Shown piece after piece: positions 173 to 45,752 of a stretch of 60,722 bases of DNA. The notes under the pieces are model-generated. The model saw only the letters and a program-made list of their open reading frames with translations, had not been told where the DNA came from and ran no database searches. Each line of letters opens with the position of its first letter. Position 1 is the stretch's first letter. The DNA comes from a virus. Both the position numbers and the translations under genes were made by a program. The DNA lies in the IMG/VR virus record IMGVR_UViG_3300033571_018267, positions 1 to 60,722 of that record; one strand, given 5' to 3'.

Positions 173-1246
173 ATGAAATGGACCCTAGATGCGGTAAACG
201 AACGGCTAAAGGCTGGGATGATTGGAGTGAAAGTTTGCCAACGAGGCGATCGCCTTTCACTCCGTGCCACATTTCCACCAAAACCCGACTCACAAAAAAC
301 GGGACCACATCAACAATATTTGGCATTGGGAATTTATGCCAATGCCGCAGGACTGCAACGGGCTGAAGCTGAAGCCAAAATTGTCGGGGGACTATTGGCA
401 ACAAACTCATTTGATTGGGGACGATACCTAGAACCCGAACCGACAAACGTGGGGACGTGCGGGTATTGGATTGATAAATTCAAGATTGAATATTTTGCGG
501 CCAACGGGAACAGCATCACCACCCAGCAAACCTGGAAGAATCATTATCAATCTTGCTTTGGCAGATTACCCCAAGATGAACCGCTTACCCGTGAAATTTT
601 AATCGCAACTGCTATTCAGACAGAAGCCAACACATGGACCAGACAGCGGACTTGCCAAAAATTTGAACAATTAGCCAAATTAGCCGATGTGGCGTGTGAC
701 CTGAAAAAATATCATGGCAACTACGGCAGCAACAGCCAAGTCATTAAACAACTGCCGACAGAAGAGGAAATTATCGCCAATAGAGAGAAAATCACAAACC
801 CGTCTTGGGTGTGGGTATTTGGAGCGATCGCTTGCTACGGATTGCGCCCTCATGAGGCTTTATTTTGTGAAATTGAACAAACTGAACCGCACCGATGCAA
901 AATTCTAGGCGGCAAAACCGGAACACGCCTTGCTTATCCGTTGCCTGTGGAATGGGTGAAGGACTGGCAACTGTGGCAGATGGATAAACCGACTATCAAA
1001 ACTGACAATAGGACTTTAAAAGATATTGGCAGCGTTGTCTACAAGTCAATGAAGCGATACGGCGTGACTTTTGCGCCTTACGATTTACGCCATGCCTGGG
1101 CTGTTCGGGCTGCTTTAAAATACAAAATCCCTACGTCTGTGGCGGCTAAATGGATGGGACATAGCGTGACCGTACACCTAAAAGAATATCAGCGTCATAT
1201 CACTGACGCCGATCATTTGGAAATATTTGAGAAATTTACTAAATAG
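173..1246 (+). CDS. int: Phage integrase (tyrosine recombinase)
   Basis: This 357-residue protein has an N-terminal DNA-binding half and a C-terminal tyrosine recombinase catalytic domain. Visible catalytic elements are R225 in GLRPHE, the box II segment DLRHAW (R306/H307), H330 in WMGHS and the probable nucleophile Y339 in EYQRH. It would catalyse site-specific integration, presumably into the adjacent tRNA-Arg(UCU), although no core att duplication can be confirmed because the other end is outside the window. The length is normal for cyanobacterial prophage integrases. A truncated paralogue of its first ~134 residues is at 29539. HIP1 sites inside the gene indicate adaptation to cyanobacterial hosts. 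Confidence 0.93.
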   Translation: MKWTLDAVNERLKAGMIGVKVCQRGDRLSLRATFPPKPDSQKTGPHQQYLALGIYANAAGLQRAEAEAKIVGGLLATNSFDWGRYLEPEPTNVGTCGYWIDKFKIEYFAANGNSITTQQTWKNHYQSCFGRLPQDEPLTREILIATAIQTEANTWTRQRTCQKFEQLAKLADVACDLKKYHGNYGSNSQVIKQLPTEEEIIANREKITNPSWVWVFGAIACYGLRPHEALFCEIEQTEPHRCKILGGKTGTRLAYPLPVEWVKDWQLWQMDKPTIKTDNRTLKDIGSVVYKSMKRYGVTFAPYDLRHAWAVRAALKYKIPTSVAAKWMGHSVTVHLKEYQRHITDADHLEIFEKFTK

Positions 1247-1519
1247 TTTATATACCCCTAATCTAAAGGATAGCTTTTCATGCGACTTCTTTCTCTTCCT
1301 TTAATGATATTATTTCCCCCGCCAAATACTCTCTTTTAGCTGAATCCATTCTTACGCGGAAGCTATCATTATCCTCTTTGTTGCGTCCCATATATCTTAT
1401 TTTTGGTGTACAGTTTTATAATAACAAGATAGACGAAAGAGAATACTAACCATTTAAAAACTTTTAGCAAATCACAAATAGATAATTGTATAATTAAAGA
1501 CGATGCAAAGAAAAACAAC
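1247..1519. other. Intergenic, AT-rich, no gene seen
   Basis: No convincing gene is present. A TATAAT hexamer at 1489-1494 lies 26 bases before the next start and is a plausible -10 for that gene. The matching -35 is weak. Confidence 0.4.
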
Positions 1520-2143
1520 ATGATTGTGGATATTGAAAATCTACTGGCTAAATGCTCTGTATTCCGCGCGAATATTGAAAAAGACCAAATATTCGTAGTC
1601 TGCGATACGGATGAAACATTTATAGAAATAGCTAAAAGACAGAAAGAGTTTATCCAAGCCTTGACGGTTGATAGTGAATCTTGGGATGAAATCATCCTAA
1701 GATCAGAATTGGGGGGGAAGCTAACCACATTCTACCCTCCCAAATTCAGACCTCTTATTGCAGCTAAACCTATGGTGCATTCTAGCATACTGGTAATCCC
1801 TGAAGCGGAGATTATCAGTGAAATCATGAAATATCCTAATCCGTCGTCTCTCGTCGAATTTTCTAGTGATAGGGGGTGGTTCACTAATACTCACGTAGAA
1901 AAAAGCTCTGGTGCTAAATTCAGCGAATGGATCGGCGCAAACCAGGGAAGTTACTGGATACCCGAAGAATTGCAGCGATTCAAGCAATTACTTCTTAAAG
2001 ACAAGGAGTTACTGGGATTCAAATATCAGGCTTTTCTTTATACAGGGCAAAAAGCCGATTTTGAAGTTGATGCTCGACTTGTAACTTTCAATGGCAGTTT
2101 ATGCCGTTGGGTTCGGGTTGTTGACTGTCAAGTGATTTCCTGA
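1520..2143 (+). CDS. Hypothetical protein with PAS-like C-terminus
   Basis: This is a 207-residue soluble protein without signal peptide or membrane segment. The last ~40 residues (FLYTGQKADFEVDARLVTF, then CRWVRV) resemble the terminal strands of a PAS domain, and the N-terminus (KCSVFRANIEKDQIFVV) could be the start of one, so this may be a sensory or ligand-binding PAS protein. It sits between the integrase and the leftward repressor and converges with the latter, their 3' ends overlapping by 56 bases. That position is typical of lysogeny-module or lysogenic-conversion cargo. The precise family is not recognised. Confidence 0.6.
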   Translation: MIVDIENLLAKCSVFRANIEKDQIFVVCDTDETFIEIAKRQKEFIQALTVDSESWDEIILRSELGGKLTTFYPPKFRPLIAAKPMVHSSILVIPEAEIISEIMKYPNPSSLVEFSSDRGWFTNTHVEKSSGAKFSEWIGANQGSYWIPEELQRFKQLLLKDKELLGFKYQAFLYTGQKADFEVDARLVTFNGSLCRWVRVVDCQVIS

Positions 2144-2705
2144 TTTCGCAATAACTAATTAATTCCTCCCGGCTGCTAAACCCACCCTTAGTAGTCGGGT
2201 TTTTTAATGTTGCTGCAATCAACGTTAGTAGCACCTCCGTATCATCTACAGACGCAGGTAAAACGCCGTGCATCAGTGCCGTGTATTGGCTTTCAGTGAT
2301 TCCCGACTTTCTACAGAACTTCTCAATGGAAAGTCCAGAATCTCGAATTAAATCTATCAGGCAATTTACATCAATCATCTGCTGTACCTCTAGGCGTTCA
2401 GAGTATTTACCAGCTAATAGAGAAATTAATCGTTGTTGCTGAATCGGGTCTAATCCCAATGCCATGCCCAGTAAATCTTCAGCGGTGCGTGGTTTTGCCC
2501 CACCCAAGCCTAAGTATTGATCTAATTCATGTCCTGGGCGACATCCCATAGCTAGACATAAATCAATATATCTCTCTAGCCCTGGAGAGACTTTTTCTGA
2601 TTGCCATTCACTCAACGTCCCTTGACTGACCCCAGATTTTTTGGCGGCTTGATTCATGCTAGATGCACGACTACAAACCGATTTAATTAATTCACCCAAT
2701 CGCAT
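2088..2705 (-). CDS. XRE-family repressor (CI-like)
   Basis: This is a 205-residue DNA-binding regulator. The N-terminal helix-turn-helix is visible around residues 17-45 (MNQAAKKSGVSQGTLSEWQ), and the rest is helical with a second HTH-like stretch (LSIEKFCRKSGITESQYTAL). It lacks an obvious LexA/CI Ser-Lys peptidase half, so it is not a clear self-cleaving repressor. It is transcribed leftwards, divergent from the early operon, and the 106-bp gap holds three 20-bp-spaced repeats suitable as operators. That position is the classic one for the lysogeny repressor. The role is inferred from position plus HTH. Confidence 0.8.
   Translation of the reverse strand: MRLGELIKSVCSRASSMNQAAKKSGVSQGTLSEWQSEKVSPGLERYIDLCLAMGCRPGHELDQYLGLGGAKPRTAEDLLGMALGLDPIQQQRLISLLAGKYSERLEVQQMIDVNCLIDLIRDSGLSIEKFCRKSGITESQYTALMHGVLPASVDDTEVLLTLIAATLKNPTTKGGFSSREELISYCEIRKSLDSQQPEPNGINCH
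2168..2205 (+). terminator. Terminator of the PAS-like gene
   Basis: A 12-bp stem (CCCGGCTGCTAA with TTAGTAGTCGGG, two G-U pairs) is followed by TTTTTT, 24 bases after the stop at 2143. It lies inside the 3' coding part of the convergent repressor gene, so those codons also encode a terminator on the other strand. Confidence 0.75.
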
Positions 2706-2752
2706 ATTTTTAAATTTAAAAAACTACTTCCCATTTTCCCACCACTAAGCTA

Positions 2753-2804
2753 CGATAAAGTTATCAAAACTCCAATAAAGGCATAGAAAACGCGATAAAG
2801 ACAT
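2753..2804. promoter_or_regulatory. Triple 20-bp-period operator candidate
   Basis: Three direct repeats of CRATAAAG start at 2753 (CGATAAAG), 2773 (CAATAAAG) and 2793 (CGATAAAG). They are exactly 20 bp apart, so on one DNA face, in the gap between the leftward repressor and the first rightward gene. They are probably repressor or Cro-type binding sites. Confidence 0.6.
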
Positions 2805-2811
2805 ATAAACT

Positions 2812-3222
2812 ATGCAAAATAACAGTAGCACGGTGGAAGGGGGAAAGCCTCTACCACTAGACAGAGGGGAAATTGTCACAATCCCAAGATTGGAACTTGA
2901 CGCGCTGATCAATCGCGCTGCTTCTAGTGCGGCGGAAAAGGCTGTATCAGAAGCAGTCAAGCAGTTTGAGTCCCTATTTTTAAAAACCGTAGGGGAAAAA
3001 ACAGGGAAGGGCGAAAAGTGGCTTAATACTGCGGCGGCGGCTGTGCTACTAGGCAAGCGTCCAGAGCAATTACGGGAAATGGTAAACGACGGGAGATTAA
3101 GGGTAGGAAAGGAAGTGAGGGACGACCGACCTAAAAACGCCATACGCCCTGTCTATGTGTTCCATATTCCAAATTGTGAGCAACGCCTTTTGACCCCTCC
3201 AGAAAAACGGGGGAATAAATGA
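2812..3222 (+). CDS. Excisionase-like / MerR-type DNA-binding protein
   Basis: This 136-residue protein opens the rightward early operon. The segment from about residue 65 (KWLNTAAAAVLLGKRPEQLREMVNDGRLRVGKEV) reads as a winged-helix excisionase/helix_turn_helix_17 fold, in which a helix pair is followed by a strand with R-V-G. Residues 40-60 are likely coiled coil. First position after the divergent promoter suggests an Xis or early regulator. Its stop overlaps the next start by 4 bases, so translation is probably coupled. Confidence 0.6.
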   Translation: MQNNSSTVEGGKPLPLDRGEIVTIPRLELDALINRAASSAAEKAVSEAVKQFESLFLKTVGEKTGKGEKWLNTAAAAVLLGKRPEQLREMVNDGRLRVGKEVRDDRPKNAIRPVYVFHIPNCEQRLLTPPEKRGNK

Positions 3223-3443
3223 AACAATCTGTAAATCAGGAGTTGAATAAAAAGCAAAAGCAGCTTGGTTTTCGTAGTGGCGATGCCCTATTTGACAGCT
3301 ATTCCAGAAATGATGGAATAGAACCAAATACCGACTACAACACCTCATTGATCAGCGGGTTTTTGAGGTCTGTACCATCCTTTTCTGATGCTCAAAAACG
3401 GTTAATTTATGAACAGTTAATCAAATCAGGATTTACGCCATGA
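3219..3443 (+). CDS. Small hypothetical early protein
   Basis: This 74-residue hydrophilic protein is of no recognised family. Its start overlaps the previous stop (ATGA) and its stop overlaps the next start, placing it in a tightly coupled operon of small regulators. No Cys pairs, signal peptide or membrane segment are seen. Confidence 0.6.
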   Translation: MKQSVNQELNKKQKQLGFRSGDALFDSYSRNDGIEPNTDYNTSLISGFLRSVPSFSDAQKRLIYEQLIKSGFTP

Positions 3444-3631
3444 ATCCTGAGATTGAATGGGAACTTTTTGAGTTTGTCCAAACTGAAAAATCATGGAGTC
3501 AAATCTGTGCAAGGATTAAGCAGCCGTTACCCATAATCTCCATTGCACTTAAACAATTAGTGGACAACGAAAGGATAATCAAAATAGTCAAAGGCGACGA
3601 TATTTATTATGCCCAAAAACAGCATGATTAA
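3440..3631 (+). CDS. Small winged-helix-like protein
   Basis: This 63-residue protein has a helix-turn-helix pattern (WSQICARIKQPLPIISIALKQLVDNERI) followed by a short wing (KIVKGDDIYYAQK). This resembles MarR/DprA-type mini winged helices. It overlaps genes on both sides and is similar in plan to the next protein, which suggests an old tandem duplication. Confidence 0.6.
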   Translation: MNPEIEWELFEFVQTEKSWSQICARIKQPLPIISIALKQLVDNERIIKIVKGDDIYYAQKQHD

Positions 3632-3878
3632 CGACAGAATAATCGCTGAATTACGCAAGGGTGATATGTTTGCCCATGAGATTAAATCAGCCTTGAACGT
3701 CAAATACTCCGAACTTTGGGAAGCGATAAAGCAGCTAGAGTCAGAGGGGTTAATCCGCCGATATTTCCGCGAAACTCCACCAAGCGCGACACTGTGCTAC
3801 TGCTTATCGAGTAATCGAAAAGTGCCTTTATCGGTTCGATGGAATCAGGGGGGGATAAAAACATGGACACCCGCGTAA
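3624..3878 (+). CDS. Small winged-helix-like protein
   Basis: This protein of about 84 residues carries the pattern MFAHEIKSALNVKYSELWEAIKQLESEGLIRRYF, a typical winged helix that reads one DNA duplex. ATG 3624 is preferred over the in-frame start at 3609 because of homology in plan with the preceding protein; the upstream start would lengthen the overlap. It probably belongs to the same regulatory cluster. Confidence 0.55.
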   Translation: MINDRIIAELRKGDMFAHEIKSALNVKYSELWEAIKQLESEGLIRRYFRETPPSATLCYCLSSNRKVPLSVRWNQGGIKTWTPA

Positions 3879-4134
3879 CCATACCGCCATCGGATTTATT
3901 TGAACAAGCAAAACCGTATCTGCTTATCACAGTCCAAGGTATTGGGGGAAAGAAATTATTTTTGGGTTTCGCAAGCCATTAATAGAAATCCATGAACGCA
4001 CCAGAAACGACCATTACGTAAGCTGGGAAATCACCATAAACCTTAATCCTAGATTCGGCGTTAAAGCTCCCATGATTATAATTTCCGCATACGAAAAAGC
4101 AACAAACGCCGATACTTCGTTGATTTGGAAATAA
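3863..4134 (+). pseudogene. Small gene split by a -1 frameshift
   Basis: ATG 3863 opens a 39-codon frame ending at TAA 3980 (MDTRVTIPPSDLFEQAKPYL...GKKLFLGF). The -1 frame then continues from the T5 run at 3959-3963 with a sensible protein (RKPLIEIHERTRNDHYVSW ... NADTSLIWK) that stops at 4134. Together they would give about 90 residues. Either one T has been lost from the run or the gene uses a weak -1 slip. The family is not recognised. Confidence 0.5.
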
Positions 4135-4191: not shown

Positions 4192-4974
4192 ATGAAAATT
4201 TACACCTCATATTACGGCGGAGAACAAATAGGGACTTCCATCTGTATCTCTATCACCCAAAAACACGGGTGCAGTTTTCAGGATTTACCTTTATTCAAGC
4301 CATCGGACACACTATTTAAGTTTTGGAAAAACTCTAAAAAAGACGCTGAGGCAGAAAAACATTACACAGATGTGTTCATGGCGAATTTAGCGTCTGAATT
4401 TAACGATAAAGCGGTTGATATTTGGCTGCGTAAAGTGGCTAAATCAGGCAGTGATGTAACTTTGAACTGTCACGAAATCAAGGGGTTTTGTCACCGTCAT
4501 TTAGTAGGAAGAATTATCAAATCAAAACGCCCTGAATTATGGGGCGGTGAAATTAGCAAAATTCGACAACAACCCGATCAACTAACACTATTCCCGTCCA
4601 CCCAGGCAACACAAACCAATCTTCCAAATAAACAGACGGAACTGTCCAGACAAGAAAATCAAGCTGTCCAGATAGCGATCCAACGCCCAACACCCATTGC
4701 CTCAAGAAAACTGGAAATACACGAAATGGGATACACTAAGCCCCGTTACACTTGGGCGGATCAAGGTGCTTTGGCTAAATGGTGGAATCCTCACGGCGAG
4801 GAAATTTCGTTTATTAGTAATTTGGAGACTGGGGAAAACAAGTACAACATTCACAAAGCTGAAGACATCCCTGATGGTTGGGGCGCAATTTTGGCGTATG
4901 GCGGCATACCTATTCCTAAAAATGACTTAATTCTAGTTTTTGACCCTCACAAAGAAGCAAGGAAGGCAGGTTAA
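4192..4974 (+). CDS. DUF488-like protein with extra C-terminal domain
   Basis: This is a 260-residue protein. The first ~125 residues match the pattern of DUF488 proteins: YTSYYGG at the N-terminus, then DVTLNCHEIKGFCHRHLVGRI with conserved C and H residues, and ELWGGEI. A Gln/Thr-rich linker (130-175) leads to a C-terminal region (YTWADQGALAKWWNPHGEEI ... DLILVFDPHKEARKAG) not recognised. DUF488 proteins are of uncertain biochemical role. It is followed after 3 bases by the next gene, so it is in the same operon. Confidence 0.6.
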   Translation: MKIYTSYYGGEQIGTSICISITQKHGCSFQDLPLFKPSDTLFKFWKNSKKDAEAEKHYTDVFMANLASEFNDKAVDIWLRKVAKSGSDVTLNCHEIKGFCHRHLVGRIIKSKRPELWGGEISKIRQQPDQLTLFPSTQATQTNLPNKQTELSRQENQAVQIAIQRPTPIASRKLEIHEMGYTKPRYTWADQGALAKWWNPHGEEISFISNLETGENKYNIHKAEDIPDGWGAILAYGGIPIPKNDLILVFDPHKEARKAG

Positions 4975-7022: not shown

Positions 7023-8129
7023 ATGACAAAACATCTTATAAGGCATTACGGAAAATACATTTATCGTCACGAGGATTACCAGGCAATATGCCAAGGCGAT
7101 GATTGTGCATCCCAGATACTTAGTCTTTTCGAGTTCTGGACTATTTGTAGGATAGAAGAAATCAAGCGAGTAGAAAGCTACAACGAGCAAAACAAAAGGA
7201 GTAAAGCGCATCTGTTGCAGACACCAGATTTATGGCTATACGAAACTATGGAAGATATAAGTGGTGGCATGATTAACGCTTACGGTGATTCTTCTATAAG
7301 AAAATCGCTCAAAAAGCTTATTGCATGGGGATTTATTGATTCCCGAAAATCGAAAAATGATTTTGACAGAACTAAGGAATACAAGTTTAATACTGAGTCA
7401 ATTCAATCATCACTAGATCAGTGGTGGAACGCTCAAAGCATTGGAAATTCCGATCCGGTAAAAACAACGTTCGAGCCGTTAGAAAAAACGTTGGAAACGG
7501 TAAAAACAACGTTCGAGCCGTTAAAAAAAACGCACGAGCCGTTGAATTTAACGTCTGATCTATATTCTCTAAACAGTCTTAATAAACAATCTCTTTTAAC
7601 AGAGGACGAAGGGAGCGAAATTGAATTAAATCCAAATACCGAAGACCCCAACCCAGAATTAATCGCTCCGTTGGTAAATAAGCCAGAATCTTCGCAACCA
7701 ACCGATAACTCAGCCCTGGGGGCAATAATTCCGCCGCCCCGCCCCGCGTCGAGTCACAACAAAGCGGATGAGCTTTTTACTAACCCACGCGAATTTAACA
7801 GCGCAAAAGGAACTTATAAAAGCGCAAGTTCAGATCCTTGGATGTCGTCTGCTCATAACCCCGATAAAGGCTTTTCTGAGTGGCTATTTTCCAAAAGATA
7901 TAAAGATAAGCCTTCAGCTACATTAGCCGATGCTAAAGCCGAAATTAGGAACAGTTGGGAGCGTGCTAGTGACTTATGGGAGGAATACCAATTTGAACTA
8001 CTTAAAAAACAGCAGCGAGTAGAAATCATTGATCCTGTACCAGATGAACCATATAAGCCACAGCAGAAACCAGGGCGCATGACAGAAGAAGCCAGAAACG
8101 AATTTATCCAAAAACTTGCATCTAAGTAG
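7023..8129 (+). CDS. Replication initiator-like protein (lambda O type)
   Basis: This is a 368-residue protein. Residues 1-125 form a winged-helix initiator-type domain (SQILSLFEFW, the helix SIRKSLKKLIAWGFIDSRK). The middle is low-complexity and contains five heptapeptide repeats (PVKTTFE, PLEKTLE, TVKTTFE, PLKKTHE, PLNLTSD). The C-terminal ~100 residues are helical and charged, suited to bind a helicase. The repeats are produced by 21-bp DNA iterons inside the gene, as in the lambda O gene/ori arrangement, and the next gene is a DnaB-type helicase 8 bases downstream. It therefore probably binds the iterons and loads the helicase. The family name cannot be fixed by eye. Confidence 0.7.
   Translation: MTKHLIRHYGKYIYRHEDYQAICQGDDCASQILSLFEFWTICRIEEIKRVESYNEQNKRSKAHLLQTPDLWLYETMEDISGGMINAYGDSSIRKSLKKLIAWGFIDSRKSKNDFDRTKEYKFNTESIQSSLDQWWNAQSIGNSDPVKTTFEPLEKTLETVKTTFEPLKKTHEPLNLTSDLYSLNSLNKQSLLTEDEGSEIELNPNTEDPNPELIAPLVNKPESSQPTDNSALGAIIPPPRPASSHNKADELFTNPREFNSAKGTYKSASSDPWMSSAHNPDKGFSEWLFSKRYKDKPSATLADAKAEIRNSWERASDLWEEYQFELLKKQQRVEIIDPVPDEPYKPQQKPGRMTEEARNEFIQKLASK
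7451..7555. other. Putative replication origin: five 21-bp iterons
   Basis: Five consecutive 21-bp units start at 7451, 7472, 7493, 7514 and 7535. They share the core CGAGCCGTT/CGATCCGGT followed by an A-run and ACGTT. They are followed by an AT-rich stretch (7556-7605) that could be the unwinding element. They lie inside the initiator gene and encode its heptapeptide repeats. Confidence 0.7.
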
Positions 8130-8137
8130 GGGAATTT

Positions 8138-9469
8138 ATGGCGACAACACAATTGCAGCTACCACCTCAAAGCATCGAAGCAGAAGAAGCAATTTTAGGC
8201 GGTATCTTATTAGACCCTAATGCGTTAGGGATAGTGTCGGCAATTTTAGAGAAAGAGGCATTTTACCTCAACACTCACCAAACTATTTACCAAGCATTGC
8301 TTGACCTTCATTCACAAAACAAATTAGTTGACAACCGAGAAAATAAACTAATTTTACTTGCCGACCACTTAAGCAACCAAGAACAATTACAGGACGTGGG
8401 GGGGCGAAATAAACTAGCAACACTGGTTGACCGCACAGTTTCCGCAGTCAACATTGACGCGATGGCTCGACTGGTAATGGAGAAATATACTAAGCGGCGA
8501 TTAATTATGGCTGGTAATGCGATCGCTCACGCCGGGCAAGATTCTTGGACTGACCCCGACGATGCAATCCAATTTGCAGAAACTCAAATATTTGAGATAT
8601 CGCAAAAACAGCATGGCGATCGCTACCAGCTTGGTAGTGCTAAAGAAATGGCTATTGAACTATTTGACTACCTTGAATCTGGCAAAATGCAAGGGGTGAA
8701 AATCGGCTGGTATGACTATGAAAACCTAACTGGCGGATTGCATAAAAGTAAGGTGAAGCTAATTGGTGGTGAGTCTTACATGGGGAAGTCTCATACAATG
8801 CTTGCCGAAGCTTATGGGCTGTTACTTCAGGGATTGCCGGTTCTTTATATCAGCCCAGAAATGGACAAAAAACAAGTAAATGCCCGAATGCTGGCGATGA
8901 TTACGGGGATAGATTCAGCAGAATTGCTTGATAACTCCCATAAATATTTAGATCAAATAGTTGATGGCATAGACAAACTTTCAGAACTTCCTTGGAAAGT
9001 CTACGATCACTCCTCTCCTACAGTTGGAACAATTGCATCAACCGTTAGGCGTGCGATAACTGAATTTGGTTGTCCGTTAGGCGCAGTTTATATTGATTAT
9101 TTACAGCAAATACCACTTAGCGGGAAACAACTACTTTCCTATGAAATAGGGCAGGTAGTGAGAGGAATTAGAGACATTGCAAAATATCATGAAGTGCCGA
9201 TTATTCTTGGTTCTCAATTGAACCGAGGCAACGCGAACTCTGAGAATAAGCGACCTACTAAAGATATGCTCCGAAACTCAGGAGAAATTTACGAAATATG
9301 CGATCAAGTAGTGCTACTTTACCGCCCTGGATATTACTCAAAAGATCCATCCGATCAAACTATTGAATTGATAGTTGAAAAGAACCGAGTCACGGGTAAA
9401 TCAGGGACGGCAACCATGTTATGTGATCTCAGAACATCTAAGTTTATGAACTTGAAAAAGGGGTATTGA
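8138..9469 (+). CDS. dnaB: DnaB-family replicative helicase
   Basis: This 443-residue protein starts with the DnaB N-terminal domain (PPQSIEAEEAILGGILLDPNAL, residues 9-30), which is the most diagnostic segment. The RecA-type core has a Walker A variant GESYMGKS (211-218), a Walker B-like VYIDYLQQ, and the H4-type sensor ILGSQLNRG near 357. It would unwind the phage origin as a hexamer loaded by the upstream initiator. The length is close to bacterial DnaB (~450). It is 8 bases after the initiator gene, so the two form a replication cassette. Confidence 0.92.
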   Translation: MATTQLQLPPQSIEAEEAILGGILLDPNALGIVSAILEKEAFYLNTHQTIYQALLDLHSQNKLVDNRENKLILLADHLSNQEQLQDVGGRNKLATLVDRTVSAVNIDAMARLVMEKYTKRRLIMAGNAIAHAGQDSWTDPDDAIQFAETQIFEISQKQHGDRYQLGSAKEMAIELFDYLESGKMQGVKIGWYDYENLTGGLHKSKVKLIGGESYMGKSHTMLAEAYGLLLQGLPVLYISPEMDKKQVNARMLAMITGIDSAELLDNSHKYLDQIVDGIDKLSELPWKVYDHSSPTVGTIASTVRRAITEFGCPLGAVYIDYLQQIPLSGKQLLSYEIGQVVRGIRDIAKYHEVPIILGSQLNRGNANSENKRPTKDMLRNSGEIYEICDQVVLLYRPGYYSKDPSDQTIELIVEKNRVTGKSGTATMLCDLRTSKFMNLKKGY

Positions 9470-24334: not shown

Positions 24335-24494
24335 CGACATTAATTTGCGAAAACTCAGAATCATTAAATTGACTCCAAAAAACAGCAACCGCGACATTAA
24401 TCTGCGAATAACGACATTAATCTGCGAATAACGACATTAATCTGCGAATAACGACATTAATCTGCGAAATGCGACATTAATCTGCGAACGTACA
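24335..24494 (-). mobile_element. Transposon end of a Tn7-like type V-K CAST
   Basis: Six copies of CGACATTAATYTGCGA start at 24335, 24392, 24412, 24432, 24452 and 24472; the last five are 20 bp apart. The outermost is followed by the terminus CGTACA (TGTACG when read inward from 24494). This matches TnsB-binding arrays and termini of CAST elements. The opposite end and tnsB, tnsC, tniQ are not in the window, so this is a one-ended remnant. Confidence 0.82.
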
Positions 24495-27497: not shown

Positions 27498-28640
27498 TTA
27501 TTTATTTCCTCCAGTTTTCGCCGCCGCCGATTTAACCGCCGTCGTCACAGAACAGGCTAATTGTGATTTATTCATGGCCAAGGTCAACGCCTCTAACGCC
27601 GCTTCACGTTCCACAGTAACAGGACATTTTTTAACTATAAAATCCGCCAAATCAGCAAACTTTGCGGTTAGTTGCCATTGTTCAGTTAGTGCCATGTGCC
27701 GATAAGTTAATAGATTTATTGAACTATCAATAACATACTTTTTCCGCCATTTACAAGCACTTGCGACGCTAACACCCAAAAACATCTCGCACCACTGCAA
27801 AGATTTTCCACTATCAATTGCTTCAATAACTTTTGCCTTTAATTCCACGTCACGTCCAATATTGCCGACGGGCTTGGGGTTGACGCGAAACCAATATTTA
27901 CAATCCTTGCAAGAATATCTAACGCCACGTTTGACAGTGTTGTAGCTCTGACATTTTGGACATTTGACGCGCCCGTCAGCGATCGCGCGTAACTTCCCCA
28001 CCGCTTCTTTTTCAATTTGGCGGATCTTCCGCGTCCCCATGCCGTGAAGTCTGGCAAGTTCACCAATGGGGGCCCTGTTGATGTAAAGTCCGTTGATAAT
28101 CGCGGCGTGTATTTCCGGCAGTTGGTTTATTAGTGGCGTAATTCTATCTAGTTCCTCTTGCTGTTCATCCGTCAATGATTCTGGTAGTTCTGCGTTATGT
28201 TGGTTACACGCTGTGGCGCATTCTTTGGCAAAGTCTAAAGGAATGTCAAGGGATAAAGCGGCTTGTTCATAAGTAACACCGTGTTTTTGGGCATAGCGTT
28301 TAATCTTTTGATGAGTTTCTTGCAACTTTCTGGGGACTTTAATTAGTCGTCCTTTATCACGGATAAATTGCAACATTGCGCCATTGATATAAAAAACCGC
28401 AACACTTGATAATTTGCAGTTTCTACTAGGATCAAATTTCTCGATTGCTCTAATTAATCCTATTGAGCCAATCTGAATTAAATCCTCAAGTGGCAATGTG
28501 CAGCAATGAACCATTTTATTTGCAACTGCTTTAACCAATCCTATGTTATTGGTGACAATCTTGTTCCTAATCCTGATGTCTTTGGTGTTGCAATAATTTA
28601 TTAATAATTGAAGATTATCTGCATATTGATTATTTATCAT
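27498..28640 (-). CDS. Sigma-70-like factor fused to an IS1 InsA-like zinc ribbon/HTH
   Basis: This is a 380-residue protein. Residues 15-95 match sigma-70 region 2 (NKIVTNNIGLVKAVANKM; LEDLIQIGSIGLIRAIEKFD; KLSSVAVFYINGAMLQFI), followed by a region 3-like part and a region 4-like HTH (IGELARLHGMGTRKIRQIEK). Residues 227-255 form a zinc ribbon (CPKCQSYNTVKRGVRYSCKD, then C) like the N-terminus of IS1-type transposases, followed by an HTH (KSLQWCEMFLGVSVASACKW). It may redirect host RNA polymerase to phage promoters. From MALTEQWQ at about 27694 the tail may be a separate small gene read through in frame. Confidence 0.7.
   Translation of the reverse strand: MINNQYADNLQLLINYCNTKDIRIRNKIVTNNIGLVKAVANKMVHCCTLPLEDLIQIGSIGLIRAIEKFDPSRNCKLSSVAVFYINGAMLQFIRDKGRLIKVPRKLQETHQKIKRYAQKHGVTYEQAALSLDIPLDFAKECATACNQHNAELPESLTDEQQEELDRITPLINQLPEIHAAIINGLYINRAPIGELARLHGMGTRKIRQIEKEAVGKLRAIADGRVKCPKCQSYNTVKRGVRYSCKDCKYWFRVNPKPVGNIGRDVELKAKVIEAIDSGKSLQWCEMFLGVSVASACKWRKKYVIDSSINLLTYRHMALTEQWQLTAKFADLADFIVKKCPVTVEREAALEALTLAMNKSQLACSVTTAVKSAAAKTGGNK
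27716..27733. promoter_or_regulatory. Perfect TTATTGA palindrome inside the sigma-like gene
   Basis: TTATTGA-ACTA-TCAATAA is a perfect 7-4-7 inverted repeat. On the leftward strand it lies just before the in-frame ATG of the tail part (MALTEQWQ), where it would be positioned as an operator of a separate small gene. Confidence 0.5.
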
Positions 28641-28688: not shown

Positions 28689-28862
28689 ATGGACAATTTA
28701 GCGCAGAAACTTCAATCATTGTTAGACGGATTTGGGAACAAGAACAATGGCAGAATTGAGAGACGGAGTGACGGTTTTTATTATGTGAATAGTGCTGTGA
28801 TTATGCACCTTGACAGCGATTATCACAGCGCAGTTTCAATAGTAAAGCAATTGTTTATTTAA
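28689..28862 (+). CDS. Small hypothetical protein (57 aa)
   Basis: The frame starts MDNLAQKLQSLLDGFGNKNN and ends SIVKQLFI. It is divergent from the sigma-like gene with 48 bases between. Its stop codon ends one base before the 3' end of the leftward tRNA gene. It may be a small alpha/beta protein; family unknown. Confidence 0.5.
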   Translation: MDNLAQKLQSLLDGFGNKNNGRIERRSDGFYYVNSAVIMHLDSDYHSAVSIVKQLFI

Positions 28863-28935
28863 TCCTGGATGCAGGAATTGAACCTGCTTGTGCCATATTA
28901 TGAGTATGGTGCTTAAACCAATCAGCCAATCCAGG
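28863..28935 (-). tRNA. Phage tRNA with CAU anticodon (Met or Ile2)
   Basis: The reverse strand gives a full 73-nt cloverleaf. The acceptor pair is CCTGGAT/ATCCAGG with discriminator A, the D-arm has GG, the anticodon arm is CCATA-CTCATAA-TATGG, and the T-arm is GCAGG-TTCAATT-CCTGC. No CCA is encoded. The C1-G72 pair argues against initiator tRNA. Elongator Met and lysidine-modified Ile2 cannot be told apart here. Confidence 0.88.
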
Positions 28936-28994
28936 AAATGCGATCGCATAATGACCAATGACCAAATCATTAGTTTGTAAACAAAGAGGACAAC

Positions 28995-42736: not shown

Positions 42737-42819
42737 ATTATCCAGTCGCGTGATGGTGTTGGTAGCACCGATTCACCACTGGCTGTAGGTCTTGTACACC
42801 CACATTGATATTATTCCCA

Positions 42820-44736
42820 ATGAAAACTATTAAAATCAAGGTCAAACTTTTTGCTGAACAGGCGCAATCATGCGATCGCTACCTAGAAGAATTGACATGG
42901 CTATGGAATCAGGTATTGGCTAATCAATTGCATAACCATTGCATCACCTGGTACAACTGGGCTGGTAAGTTGAGCGCAGATTTAGCTAAGGCGACGGAAA
43001 AGTTAGAGAAGCTAAAACCGGAACAACAGCAGCTTGTTAGGAACTACTACCGCAGCAAAGACAAGCCAAAACTCAACAAAAAAGAACAGGAATTAGTTGC
43101 CAAATTTGATATATTTTCCCGGTGGTTGCCGTTTGACTTAGAAAATATTATTCCCGTACCTTTGCGAGTTGGCAACAGTGGCTACGAGGGCTTATCGTGC
43201 CAGATTGCTACAGGCGGAAGTTACTGGAAACGGGACGATAATTTTAATATTCCAATCAAAACCAAAAAGGGGATTATTCACGTCAAAGGGTCTAAATTGG
43301 TTAAGGGTGATTGCCCCTGGAAACGAATACAAATAACGCCGCATAATTATAAAACTTTTCCCAGTGGTAAGTTTGAGGGGAGGGAATTAATAGATGTGAT
43401 GAAGTTTGATAATTTGAACGGACTAAACGGGCTGAGAGCGATGCAGAATCTACCTGATTTATCCGTTTCCTCGCACTACGTTGGAGGCTTGTTAGAGTTT
43501 TTTAAACAGTCATGGTTAGCGTTTTTAGACCCCAAAAGGGTGAATAGCAGGAAACCAAAGTTCAAAAAAGACGCTGATAAAATTACCACCTTGTCGAATA
43601 ATCAGTGTGCGCCAAATAAGATAGACGTGGCGAATGATTGGATTGATATTACTGGGTTCAATAAGTTGATTGTTGCTGACAAGAACTGGGTTAAAAGATT
43701 AAACATAGACGAGGTTCTACCCAGGACGTATATGCTCACGAAAAAGACATCAGGGTATTACATAAATATCGTCGTTGCTCATCCATTACAAGAAGAAAAA
43801 GCAGCTTTAACAAAGAAATTACTCAAGGTCAAAAAAGAGTTTGGCGAAGATAGTCAAGAGTACGAAGATACTAAGTCTAAAATCAAATTTATTGAACAAC
43901 AAATCAAAGATTCATCAATTACACAAGGTAAGAATTTAAGCGCAGGGATTGACCCTGGGGTACAGGCTACTGTGGCGACGGATCATGGGGCGCTGTTTCT
44001 CCCAAATCTAAGCAGGGAGCGCGTGTCAATCCATATCGAGGAACTACAATCAAAGCTTGATAATCTTGAGTTAATTAATGATAAAAAGTGGAAAGATTCA
44101 GGGCGCAAAGGTACTCGACCTAAGACAAAAAACGAGATTAAGATACAAGATAAAATTACCAGATTGCATGAACGTGGTGCTAATTCTTCTAATGCCTTTA
44201 ATCATAAAATGTCAACTAGATTAAGCAGGACTTACGAGCATATAGCATGGGAAGATACCCAGCTAACTAATCTTCTGAAACAAACAGAAGCTAAAGCATT
44301 ACCTGAAGGCGTGGGATATGCTCACAATGGTGCGTCTGCTAAACGGGGTTTAAATTGGATTATGAGACAAAGATGCTTAGGTGATTTAAAAACTAAAACT
44401 AAGCAAAAAGTTGAGAATAGAGGCGGTAGTTTTCATGAACCACCTGCTAACTACAGTTCTCAATTGTGCCATTGTTGTCATCAAAAAGGTGAACGATTAT
44501 CACAGTATGAGTTTATCTGCAAAAACTCTGATTGTGAGTTATTTGAACAGGTGCAACAAGCTGACACTAATGCTGCTAGAAACCACAAACATAATAGTAG
44601 TTTTGAGCTAGGAGAAGTCAAATATCACAACACTAGATTAATCTATCAGAAACCCAAAAGATTTAAAAAGAAACGCTTGACAAAGCAGATGGTTTTAGTT
44701 AATATTAATTTACCGCAGTTTGGACGGGATGACTAA
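42820..44736 (+). CDS. Cas12/TnpB-like type V effector with intact RuvC
   Basis: This is a 638-residue protein from ATG 42820 (a TTG at 42805 would add five residues). The RuvC acidic residues are present: D378 in AGIDPGVQATVATDHG, E478 in EHIAWEDTQLTNL and D582 in QQADTNAARNH. A zinc ribbon lies between the last two (LCHCCHQKGE, then FICKNSDCELF). The N-terminal ~370 residues are much longer than in TnpB (~200), consistent with a guide-binding REC/WED part. Two CRISPR arrays begin 315 bases downstream. There is no cas1/cas2. This resembles the miniature type V-U class of cyanobacteria; it is not Cas12k, whose RuvC is dead. The exact subtype is unresolved. Confidence 0.82.
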   Translation: MKTIKIKVKLFAEQAQSCDRYLEELTWLWNQVLANQLHNHCITWYNWAGKLSADLAKATEKLEKLKPEQQQLVRNYYRSKDKPKLNKKEQELVAKFDIFSRWLPFDLENIIPVPLRVGNSGYEGLSCQIATGGSYWKRDDNFNIPIKTKKGIIHVKGSKLVKGDCPWKRIQITPHNYKTFPSGKFEGRELIDVMKFDNLNGLNGLRAMQNLPDLSVSSHYVGGLLEFFKQSWLAFLDPKRVNSRKPKFKKDADKITTLSNNQCAPNKIDVANDWIDITGFNKLIVADKNWVKRLNIDEVLPRTYMLTKKTSGYYINIVVAHPLQEEKAALTKKLLKVKKEFGEDSQEYEDTKSKIKFIEQQIKDSSITQGKNLSAGIDPGVQATVATDHGALFLPNLSRERVSIHIEELQSKLDNLELINDKKWKDSGRKGTRPKTKNEIKIQDKITRLHERGANSSNAFNHKMSTRLSRTYEHIAWEDTQLTNLLKQTEAKALPEGVGYAHNGASAKRGLNWIMRQRCLGDLKTKTKQKVENRGGSFHEPPANYSSQLCHCCHQKGERLSQYEFICKNSDCELFEQVQQADTNAARNHKHNSSFELGEVKYHNTRLIYQKPKRFKKKRLTKQMVLVNINLPQFGRDD

Positions 44737-44908: not shown

Positions 44909-45051
44909 CAGAACCTAGACAAGCAAAGGGATTAGGGCGGTCTTTGCAGAATATTAAAAGGGATTGAAGCGGCTAAAATAGACTTTTTGATCCGATCTGC
45001 CAAAACAGGCTTCAGGATTCAGCTATGTCAAGGGTTCTAGATCCCGGCTTA
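44909..45051 (+). ncRNA. Leader / tracrRNA-like element 1
   Basis: About 143 bases directly before array 1 are repeated, at roughly 75% identity, before array 2. AAAGGGATTAG (44925-44935) is complementary to CTAATCCCTTT of repeat 1, and TTTGCA (44943-44948) to its 5' end. A second complementary segment, AAAAGGGATT, is at 44956-44965. These anti-repeats suggest a tracrRNA or a leader pairing with pre-crRNA. A 60-codon frame across it is not protein-like. Confidence 0.65.
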
Positions 45052-45752
45052 TTGCAAGGCGGCTAATCCCTTTTAAGGGACTGAAACTTATCACTCATGA
45101 TGTATTGCAGTTTATAGAGTTATTATTGCAAGGCGGCTAATCCCTTTTAAGGGACTGAAACTAGCGCGTTATGCTGATAGTTTGAGTATTTCTCTGATAT
45201 TGCAAGGCGGCTAATCCCTTTTAAGGGACTGAAACTCAGAGTCAGATAACTTATTTATAATATAGCTTAGTATTGCAAGGCGGCTAATCCCTTTTAAGGG
45301 ACTGAAACTTCCGCGTATCCTGTCACCTGTTGCGCTAAATCGAATATTGCAAGGCGGCTAATCCCTTTTAAGGGACTGAAACTAACCTAACCAGAAAAGC
45401 AGATTTGATCATTGAATTATTGCAAGGCGGCTAATCCCTTTTAAGGGACTGAAACTCTTTAAAGCGGCATTTTATTGAGATGGCTGTAAAATTTATTGCA
45501 AGGCGGCTAACCCCTTTTAAGGGACTGAAACTGGGAATTTTCCCTATGGCTTATCTATCTCTTCAGATTGCAAGGCGGCTAACCCCTTTTAAGGGACTGA
45601 AACAGTTCCCTGTCGCTGCAATCATCTAATTGCCAGAACTTGCAAGGCGGCTAATCCCTTTTAAGGGACTGAAACCTTGACAGAAATAGTATTTTATCGG
45701 GTGCATTTCCATTTTCTTGCAAGGCGGCTAATCCCTTTTAAGGGACTGAAAC
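45052..45752 (+). CRISPR. CRISPR array 1: 10 repeats, 9 spacers
   Basis: The 36-nt repeats start TTGCAAGGCGGCTAATCCC and end AAGGGACTGAAAC. They start at 45052, 45126, 45200, 45273, 45347, 45420, 45496, 45568, 45640 and 45717. Spacers are 36-41 nt. Repeats 7 and 8 carry one T-to-C change (CTAACCCC). The repeat contains the hairpin CCCTT-TT-AAGGG. An A usually precedes each repeat, except the last two. No spacer matched the rest of the window by eye. Confidence 0.97.

Follow-up and report, generated by a model that had tools for sequence, protein, structure and literature searches.

The stretch of DNA analysed here, referred to throughout as the window, is a 60,722-base virus record that belongs to a cyanobacterial virus. 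It opens within a tRNA gene, the 3′ portion of which occupies 1-46, and an integrase-like gene comes next at 173-1246; together these are likely the attachment site of an integrated phage, and the window has the appearance of a prophage or temperate cyanophage. The locus of interest is an initiator-like gene that carries a tandem array of 21-bp units in its middle, with a gene for a DnaB-type replicative helicase directly 3′ of it. The presence of this helicase gene after the repeats bears out the original prediction for the region. The features of the locus are listed below, where class A denotes a set of close relatives defined in a later section and L003 and L004 are two of its members.

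7023-8129, + strand: initiator-like gene (368 aa, 368 codons), an open reading frame with a weak PHROG 6493 match, directly 5′ of dnaB
7023-7412, + strand: N-terminal domain (codons 1-130), proposed to bind the iterons, based on identity within class A, free synonymous sites and profile similarity
7413-7607 (about), + strand: proposed origin, the block with frozen synonymous sites, from the codon comparison with L003 and L004
7451-7471, + strand: iteron 1, CGATCCGGTAAAAACAACGTT
7472-7492, + strand: iteron 2, CGAGCCGTTAGAAAAAACGTT
7493-7513, + strand: iteron 3, GGAAACGGTAAAAACAACGTT
7514-7534, + strand: iteron 4, CGAGCCGTTAAAAAAAACGCA
7535-7555, + strand: iteron 5, CGAGCCGTTGAATTTAACGTC
7542-7601, no strand: proposed DNA-unwinding element, the least stable 60 bp of the gene by nearest-neighbour stacking energy
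7620-8126, + strand: C-terminal part (about codons 200-368), proposed to recruit the helicase, swapped independently of the N-terminal domain and array
8138-9469, + strand: dnaB-type replicative helicase gene (Pfam DnaB E 1.4e-26, DnaB_C 4.4e-44; PHROG 19 1.5e-80)

Several further features of the window lie apart from this locus. Near-perfect 20-bp repeats (CGACATTAATCTGCGAATAA) occur at 24336-24488 in a stretch without long open reading frames, with 4.8 copies at 24392-24488 and a degenerate copy upstream, and we take them to be similar to the ends bound by transposase in Tn7-like/CAST elements. The phage also carries the gene for a sigma-70 family factor at 27498-28640 on the − strand (Pfam Sigma70_r2 5.6e-13, PHROG 351 7.7e-43), near a tRNA-Met gene at 28862-28936. 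At 42805-44736 lies the gene for a TnpB/Cas12f-like protein of 643 aa (Cas12f1-like_TNB, OrfB_IS605), adjoined by a CRISPR-like array with repeats of about 37 nt (45050-45603). A CRISPR array beside a TnpB-like gene has previously been described for Aphanizomenon phage vB_AphaS-CL131 (hereafter CL131), in a passage of its genome paper (PMC6293099).

The initiator-like protein matched no Pfam family at E<0.1, with no match to Phage_rep_O or RepA_N, and no family was matched at E<0.05 by its homologues from CL131 (L013) and from Nostoc HK-01 plasmid 2 (L014). The N-terminal half is matched by PHROG 6493, 'DnaD-like helicase loader', weakly in the window copy (E 0.0019) and at 2e-5 in the CL131 homologue, 3.9e-7 in the distant L028 and 1.7e-11 in L014. 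In profile comparison, the window N-terminal domain aligns with the L014-type domain (E 4e-5, probability 70), and its profile resembles the N-termini of O-like/DnaD-like replication proteins of phages; through this similarity it is proposed to be a putative DNA-binding domain. The AlphaFold2 model of the domain (pLDDT 55.7) is too poor to confirm a DNA-binding fold such as a winged helix, a Foldseek search with this model gave a best E of 0.31, and a sequence search of solved structures returned weak, unrelated matches alone.

The array and its 3′ flank

The array spans 7451-7555, corresponding to codons 144-178 of the 368, between the N- and C-terminal parts of the initiator gene. It has a Tandem Repeats Finder score of 109, above chance, and the motif GAGNCGKTRRAAANAACG forms an array solely at this site within the window. 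The five units, most of which contain an A-rich run, keep an exact 21-bp period as predicted, but the copies themselves are inexact, with a mean pairwise DNA identity of 0.72. The array is in frame in the open reading frame and, as had been read from the sequence, encodes a heptapeptide repeat, its five heptads being DPVKTTF/EPLEKTL/ETVKTTF/EPLKKTH/EPLNLTS. Codon-shuffled controls that encode the same peptide with the codon usage of the window reached an identity of only 0.58 ± 0.02, and 0 of 20,000 attained the observed 0.72. At the DNA level the copies are more alike than the encoded peptide demands. A spacing of two helical turns had been proposed from the period; this suits the 21 bp found here but is no general rule, as relatives have periods of 15, 16, 22 and 23 bp.

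The AT-rich stretch expected after the array is weak by base count, since 7556-7620 is 66% AT and 16% of 65-bp windows are equally rich, but it stands out by nearest-neighbour stacking energy, where no other 60 bp of the gene is as unstable as 7542-7601, which ranks at the 99.2th percentile for low stability within the window. Two origin markers were tried and rejected. GC skew, expected to change at this site, runs on without a switch in both the window and CL131, and gene direction confounds it; for DnaA boxes, two box-like sites alone were found (7887 and 8104), both outside 7413-7607.

Class-A relatives and their codon usage

The initiator-like gene has close relatives in 11 virus contigs and in CL131, with the gene of contig L002 being identical to that of the window. 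Class A comprises the relatives that share the N-terminal ~143 residues, the 21-bp array and the residues DLYS..KQS after the array. In the relatives compared, four to six 21-bp units lie between the N-terminal domain and DLYS..KQS, with four in L007 and six, nearly identical to one another, in L009. Identity within codons 1-130 is 72-87%, while the remainder of the protein beyond DLYS..KQS differs widely, and the same N-terminal domain is accompanied by the same 21-bp array whichever C-terminal part follows. The dnaB gene is directly 3′ of the initiator-like gene in the window and in the class-A relatives checked. When 2.9 million virus contigs were scanned for the 21-bp motif, more than one unit was matched in the 11 class-A records and in no others; a further 10 contigs gave single isolated matches, which were taken as chance. 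A peptide-pattern search of GTDB genome contigs found no relatives, and searches of the virus contigs for the C-terminal part, L014, L016 and L031 found no new ones. L004 carries a further 21-bp array at 4614-4750 (6.5 copies, CAAAAATAAACCCAAAGAAAT), upstream of and outside its initiator gene.

As unit number is equal in the window, L003, L004 and L013, these genes can be compared directly, codon by codon. Between the window and each of the other three, synonymous change (pS) is 0.04-0.13 in the array versus 0.51-0.59 in codons 1-130, whereas nonsynonymous change (pN) is not reduced, at 0.09-0.22 in the array versus 0.06-0.08 in codons 1-130. In all six pairs among the four genes, no 35-codon stretch of the N-terminal domain is as low in pS as the array. 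Recent transfer of the segment would reduce both types of change, and thus does not explain this contrast. Sliding windows over the initiator gene reveal a single synonymous trough, with a sharp onset at codon 130/131 (7413) and an end at about codon 195-200 (7607), such that the frozen sites run on into the non-repeated 3′ flank of the array and the frozen block, about 7413-7607, contains both the array and the low-stability stretch. Among unchanged residues in codons 131-210, the same codon is used at 58 of 59 positions versus L003 and 48 of 50 versus L004; the corresponding counts in codons 1-130 are 80 of 114 and 71 of 109. The threonine at heptad position 6 is encoded by ACG in 23 of 26 distinct units, although ACG accounts for 14% of threonine codons across the window and for none of the other 13 in the initiator gene, and heptad residues 2, 4, 5 and 7 vary (for example K/E, T/R/K/I/L, H/L/F/S/Q) with the codons otherwise kept. 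A closer pair, L007 with four units and L009 with six, displays no freeze (pS 0.22 in the array, 0.14 in the N-terminal domain); here the copy numbers are unequal, and the units compared are perhaps not the same ancestral copies. Judged by these codon comparisons, the array is under selection as DNA, not merely as code. The idea that double use constrains both code and binding site needs adjusting, in that the DNA is constrained more strongly than the peptide, which is drifting.

Arrays and N-terminal domains in Nostoc plasmids

Beyond class A, the protein of Nostoc HK-01 plasmid 2 (L014) matches residues 164-325 of the window protein at 40%, with an N-terminal domain that differs from that of the window and an array of 16 bp. 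The Nostoc plasmids L030-L036 have a common C-terminal part and DnaB (75-97% identity) joined to several N-terminal domain types: one type with 15-bp arrays in L030, L035 and L036, another with a 23-bp array in L031 and L032, and a type of its own with an alternating 22/23-bp array in L033. In L034 (Nostoc sp. MS1 pNSMS101, 580-3223), the initiator gene is without an N-terminal domain, with the 23-bp array, C-terminal part and dnaB kept; a transposase gene lies immediately upstream. In L036 (Nostoc sp. C057 p057_A, 2779-4103), the initiator is intact with a 9.5-copy array, and dnaB is shortened, annotated as the N-terminal domain only, and adjoins TnsA-like and integrase genes. A Halobacillus plasmid protein with the L014-type N-terminal domain has a 23-bp array, and a 22-bp array is found for a Deinococcus plasmid protein that is a distant relative of the window domain. 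Because several of these periods (16, 22 and 23 bp) are not codon multiples, successive copies of the DNA unit are translated in two or three different frames in L014, L033, L034, L038, L016 and L031, and a peptide repeat cannot account for such arrays. Short-period arrays are concentrated in the initiator genes, which hold 18 of the 22 found in 210 kb of related loci while making up 12% of the DNA, a census that speaks for concentration within the loci and not for natural frequency, as the set was gathered by gene similarity.

The low-stability stretch recurs beside these arrays. In the class-A relatives tested, as in L014, L030, L035, L036, L034 and L016, the 60 bp with the lowest stability in the gene begins no more than about 30 bp from where the array ends on its 3′ side; in L031, L033 and L038, it is not beside the array. 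Over eight representatives the combined p for adjacency is 1.3e-5, a value that is indicative, as the representatives are not fully independent and the array ends come from Tandem Repeats Finder.

The same slot in the gene is used by at least five distinct classes of N-terminal domain with different iterons, and array type is linked to domain type. From these sequences, related viruses and plasmids seem to exchange the repeats together with the part proposed to bind them, as a single cassette. We lean, if only slightly, towards a wider reading, in which origin specificity in cyanobacterial phages and plasmids would be an exchangeable cassette made up of a DNA-binding domain, its own iterons and, in most classes, an unwinding stretch, which forms the 5′ half of the gene and is fused in frame to a common helicase-recruiting tail. 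If this is true, a single in-frame recombination would switch the origin and its reader together.

A candidate origin, its rivals and known systems

The block at 7413-7607 is, in our judgement, very probably a cyanophage replication origin inside its own initiator gene, to which the N-terminal domain of the encoded protein would bind and DnaB would be recruited. The frozen sites, the linkage of arrays to N-terminal domains and the non-codon periods all point to what was originally predicted, namely origin iterons within an initiator gene in the style of lambda O. In the mechanism that we infer for origin activity, the N-terminal domain would bind the five 21-bp units, with neighbouring protein copies spaced by roughly two turns of the helix along one face of the DNA. 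This complex, once assembled, would then open the adjacent low-stability stretch at 7542-7601, and the C-terminal part would bring in the DnaB helicase encoded by the adjacent gene at 8138-9469.

The main rival is that the initiator binds the repeats for autoregulation of its operon or for copy control, making them an operator instead of an origin. An in-gene binding site could serve as a roadblock or operator, and would give identical DNA-level constraint and linkage to the N-terminal domain; however, the constrained block includes a low-stability stretch, at the place typical of the class, that an operator would not need, and the array lies about 430 bp into the gene with no more copies upstream. 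We consider this explanation improbable. Far less likely is that slippage expanded the repeats neutrally within a disordered linker, giving a functionless tandem duplication. The peptide is of the linker type, and the variable copy number (L007, L009) together with the near-identity of the L009 units indicates that duplication happens, yet nonsynonymous divergence alongside static synonymous sites largely refutes this account, the synonymous freeze extends to the non-repeated 3′ flank, array type follows N-terminal domain type, and arrays recur in the same place across domain classes. Selection on the peptide, with the heptads acting as a coiled or repeated protein-interaction element, would fit the clean heptad period preserved in all class-A relatives, but is scarcely credible given that four of the heptad residues change while codons stay and that 16-, 22- and 23-bp arrays in the same slot yield no peptide repeat of that period. 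Equally hard to credit is constraint from an overlapping gene or RNA structure: the window does have a 72-aa antisense open reading frame at 7433-7651, but its third positions fall on those of the sense frame and it would therefore leave these free to change, every antisense frame across the array and flanks has at least one stop in each of six class-A genes (at least two in four), and the region has a folding z-score of 0.13 and no Rfam match.

An origin within the initiator gene would allow origins to be predicted at base level in phages and plasmids from filamentous cyanobacteria, where the genes concerned carry the annotation 'hypothetical'. An array in an initiator gene before dnaB would provide a practical rule for finding origins, and hence for building shuttle vectors. 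The matched pairs of N-terminal domain and iterons on a common tail would amount to a natural swap experiment on initiator-origin coevolution, and the frozen synonymous sites offer a clean example of a sequence doubling as code and putative binding site.

In lambda O, iterons and an AT-rich tract lie in the middle of the initiator gene, and among lambdoid phages the number of iterons differs between relatives, which alters protein length (PMC7466680). The window resembles lambda O/ori-lambda in having in-gene iterons, an easily melted tract and a helicase-related gene next downstream. It differs in showing no detectable sequence relation (no Pfam match), in its five units of 21-bp period, and in that its neighbour is the DnaB helicase itself, where that of lambda is a P-type loader. 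In P22, the neighbour is likewise the DnaB helicase. Staphylococcal pSK41, one of the RepA_N plasmids, has a Rep whose N-terminal domain binds Rep boxes central in its own gene, and the origin-encoding central part forms a linker in the protein (PMC5703833). The layout is the same, with repeats central in the initiator gene, whereas pSK41 Rep interacts with DnaG primase and the window gene adjoins dnaB.

The closest named homologue is Cl131_gp081/gp080 of CL131 (58.5% over 95%), with the array in the same position and dnaB next; the C-terminal part and DnaB are of another type, and Cl131_gp081 is annotated as hypothetical. The CL131 genome paper, in its replication passages, names ORF080 (DnaB) and ORF132 (DnaD) and neither names gp081 as an initiator nor gives an origin (PMC6293099); the DnaD-domain ORF132 of those passages is a second candidate initiator, located elsewhere in CL131. 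Pairs of initiator and dnaB on Nostoc plasmids (HK-01 plasmids 1 and 2; C057 p057_A and p057_H; pNPM1; UHCC 0870; MS1; SO-36) share the order of N-terminal domain, in-gene tandem array, C-terminal part and then dnaB. They differ in having other classes of N-terminal domain (HTH_36 in several) and arrays of 15, 16 and 22-23 bp, and their DnaB is 36-39% identical to the window DnaB over its full length. In-gene origins as such are already known. A search of the open-access literature, with subscription papers mostly outside its reach, found no account of such in-gene arrays for phages of cyanobacteria or for plasmids of Nostoc. Neither the family to which the window protein belongs nor its swappable cassettes seem to have been described before, and the pattern of cassette exchange would be the part worth specialist interest.
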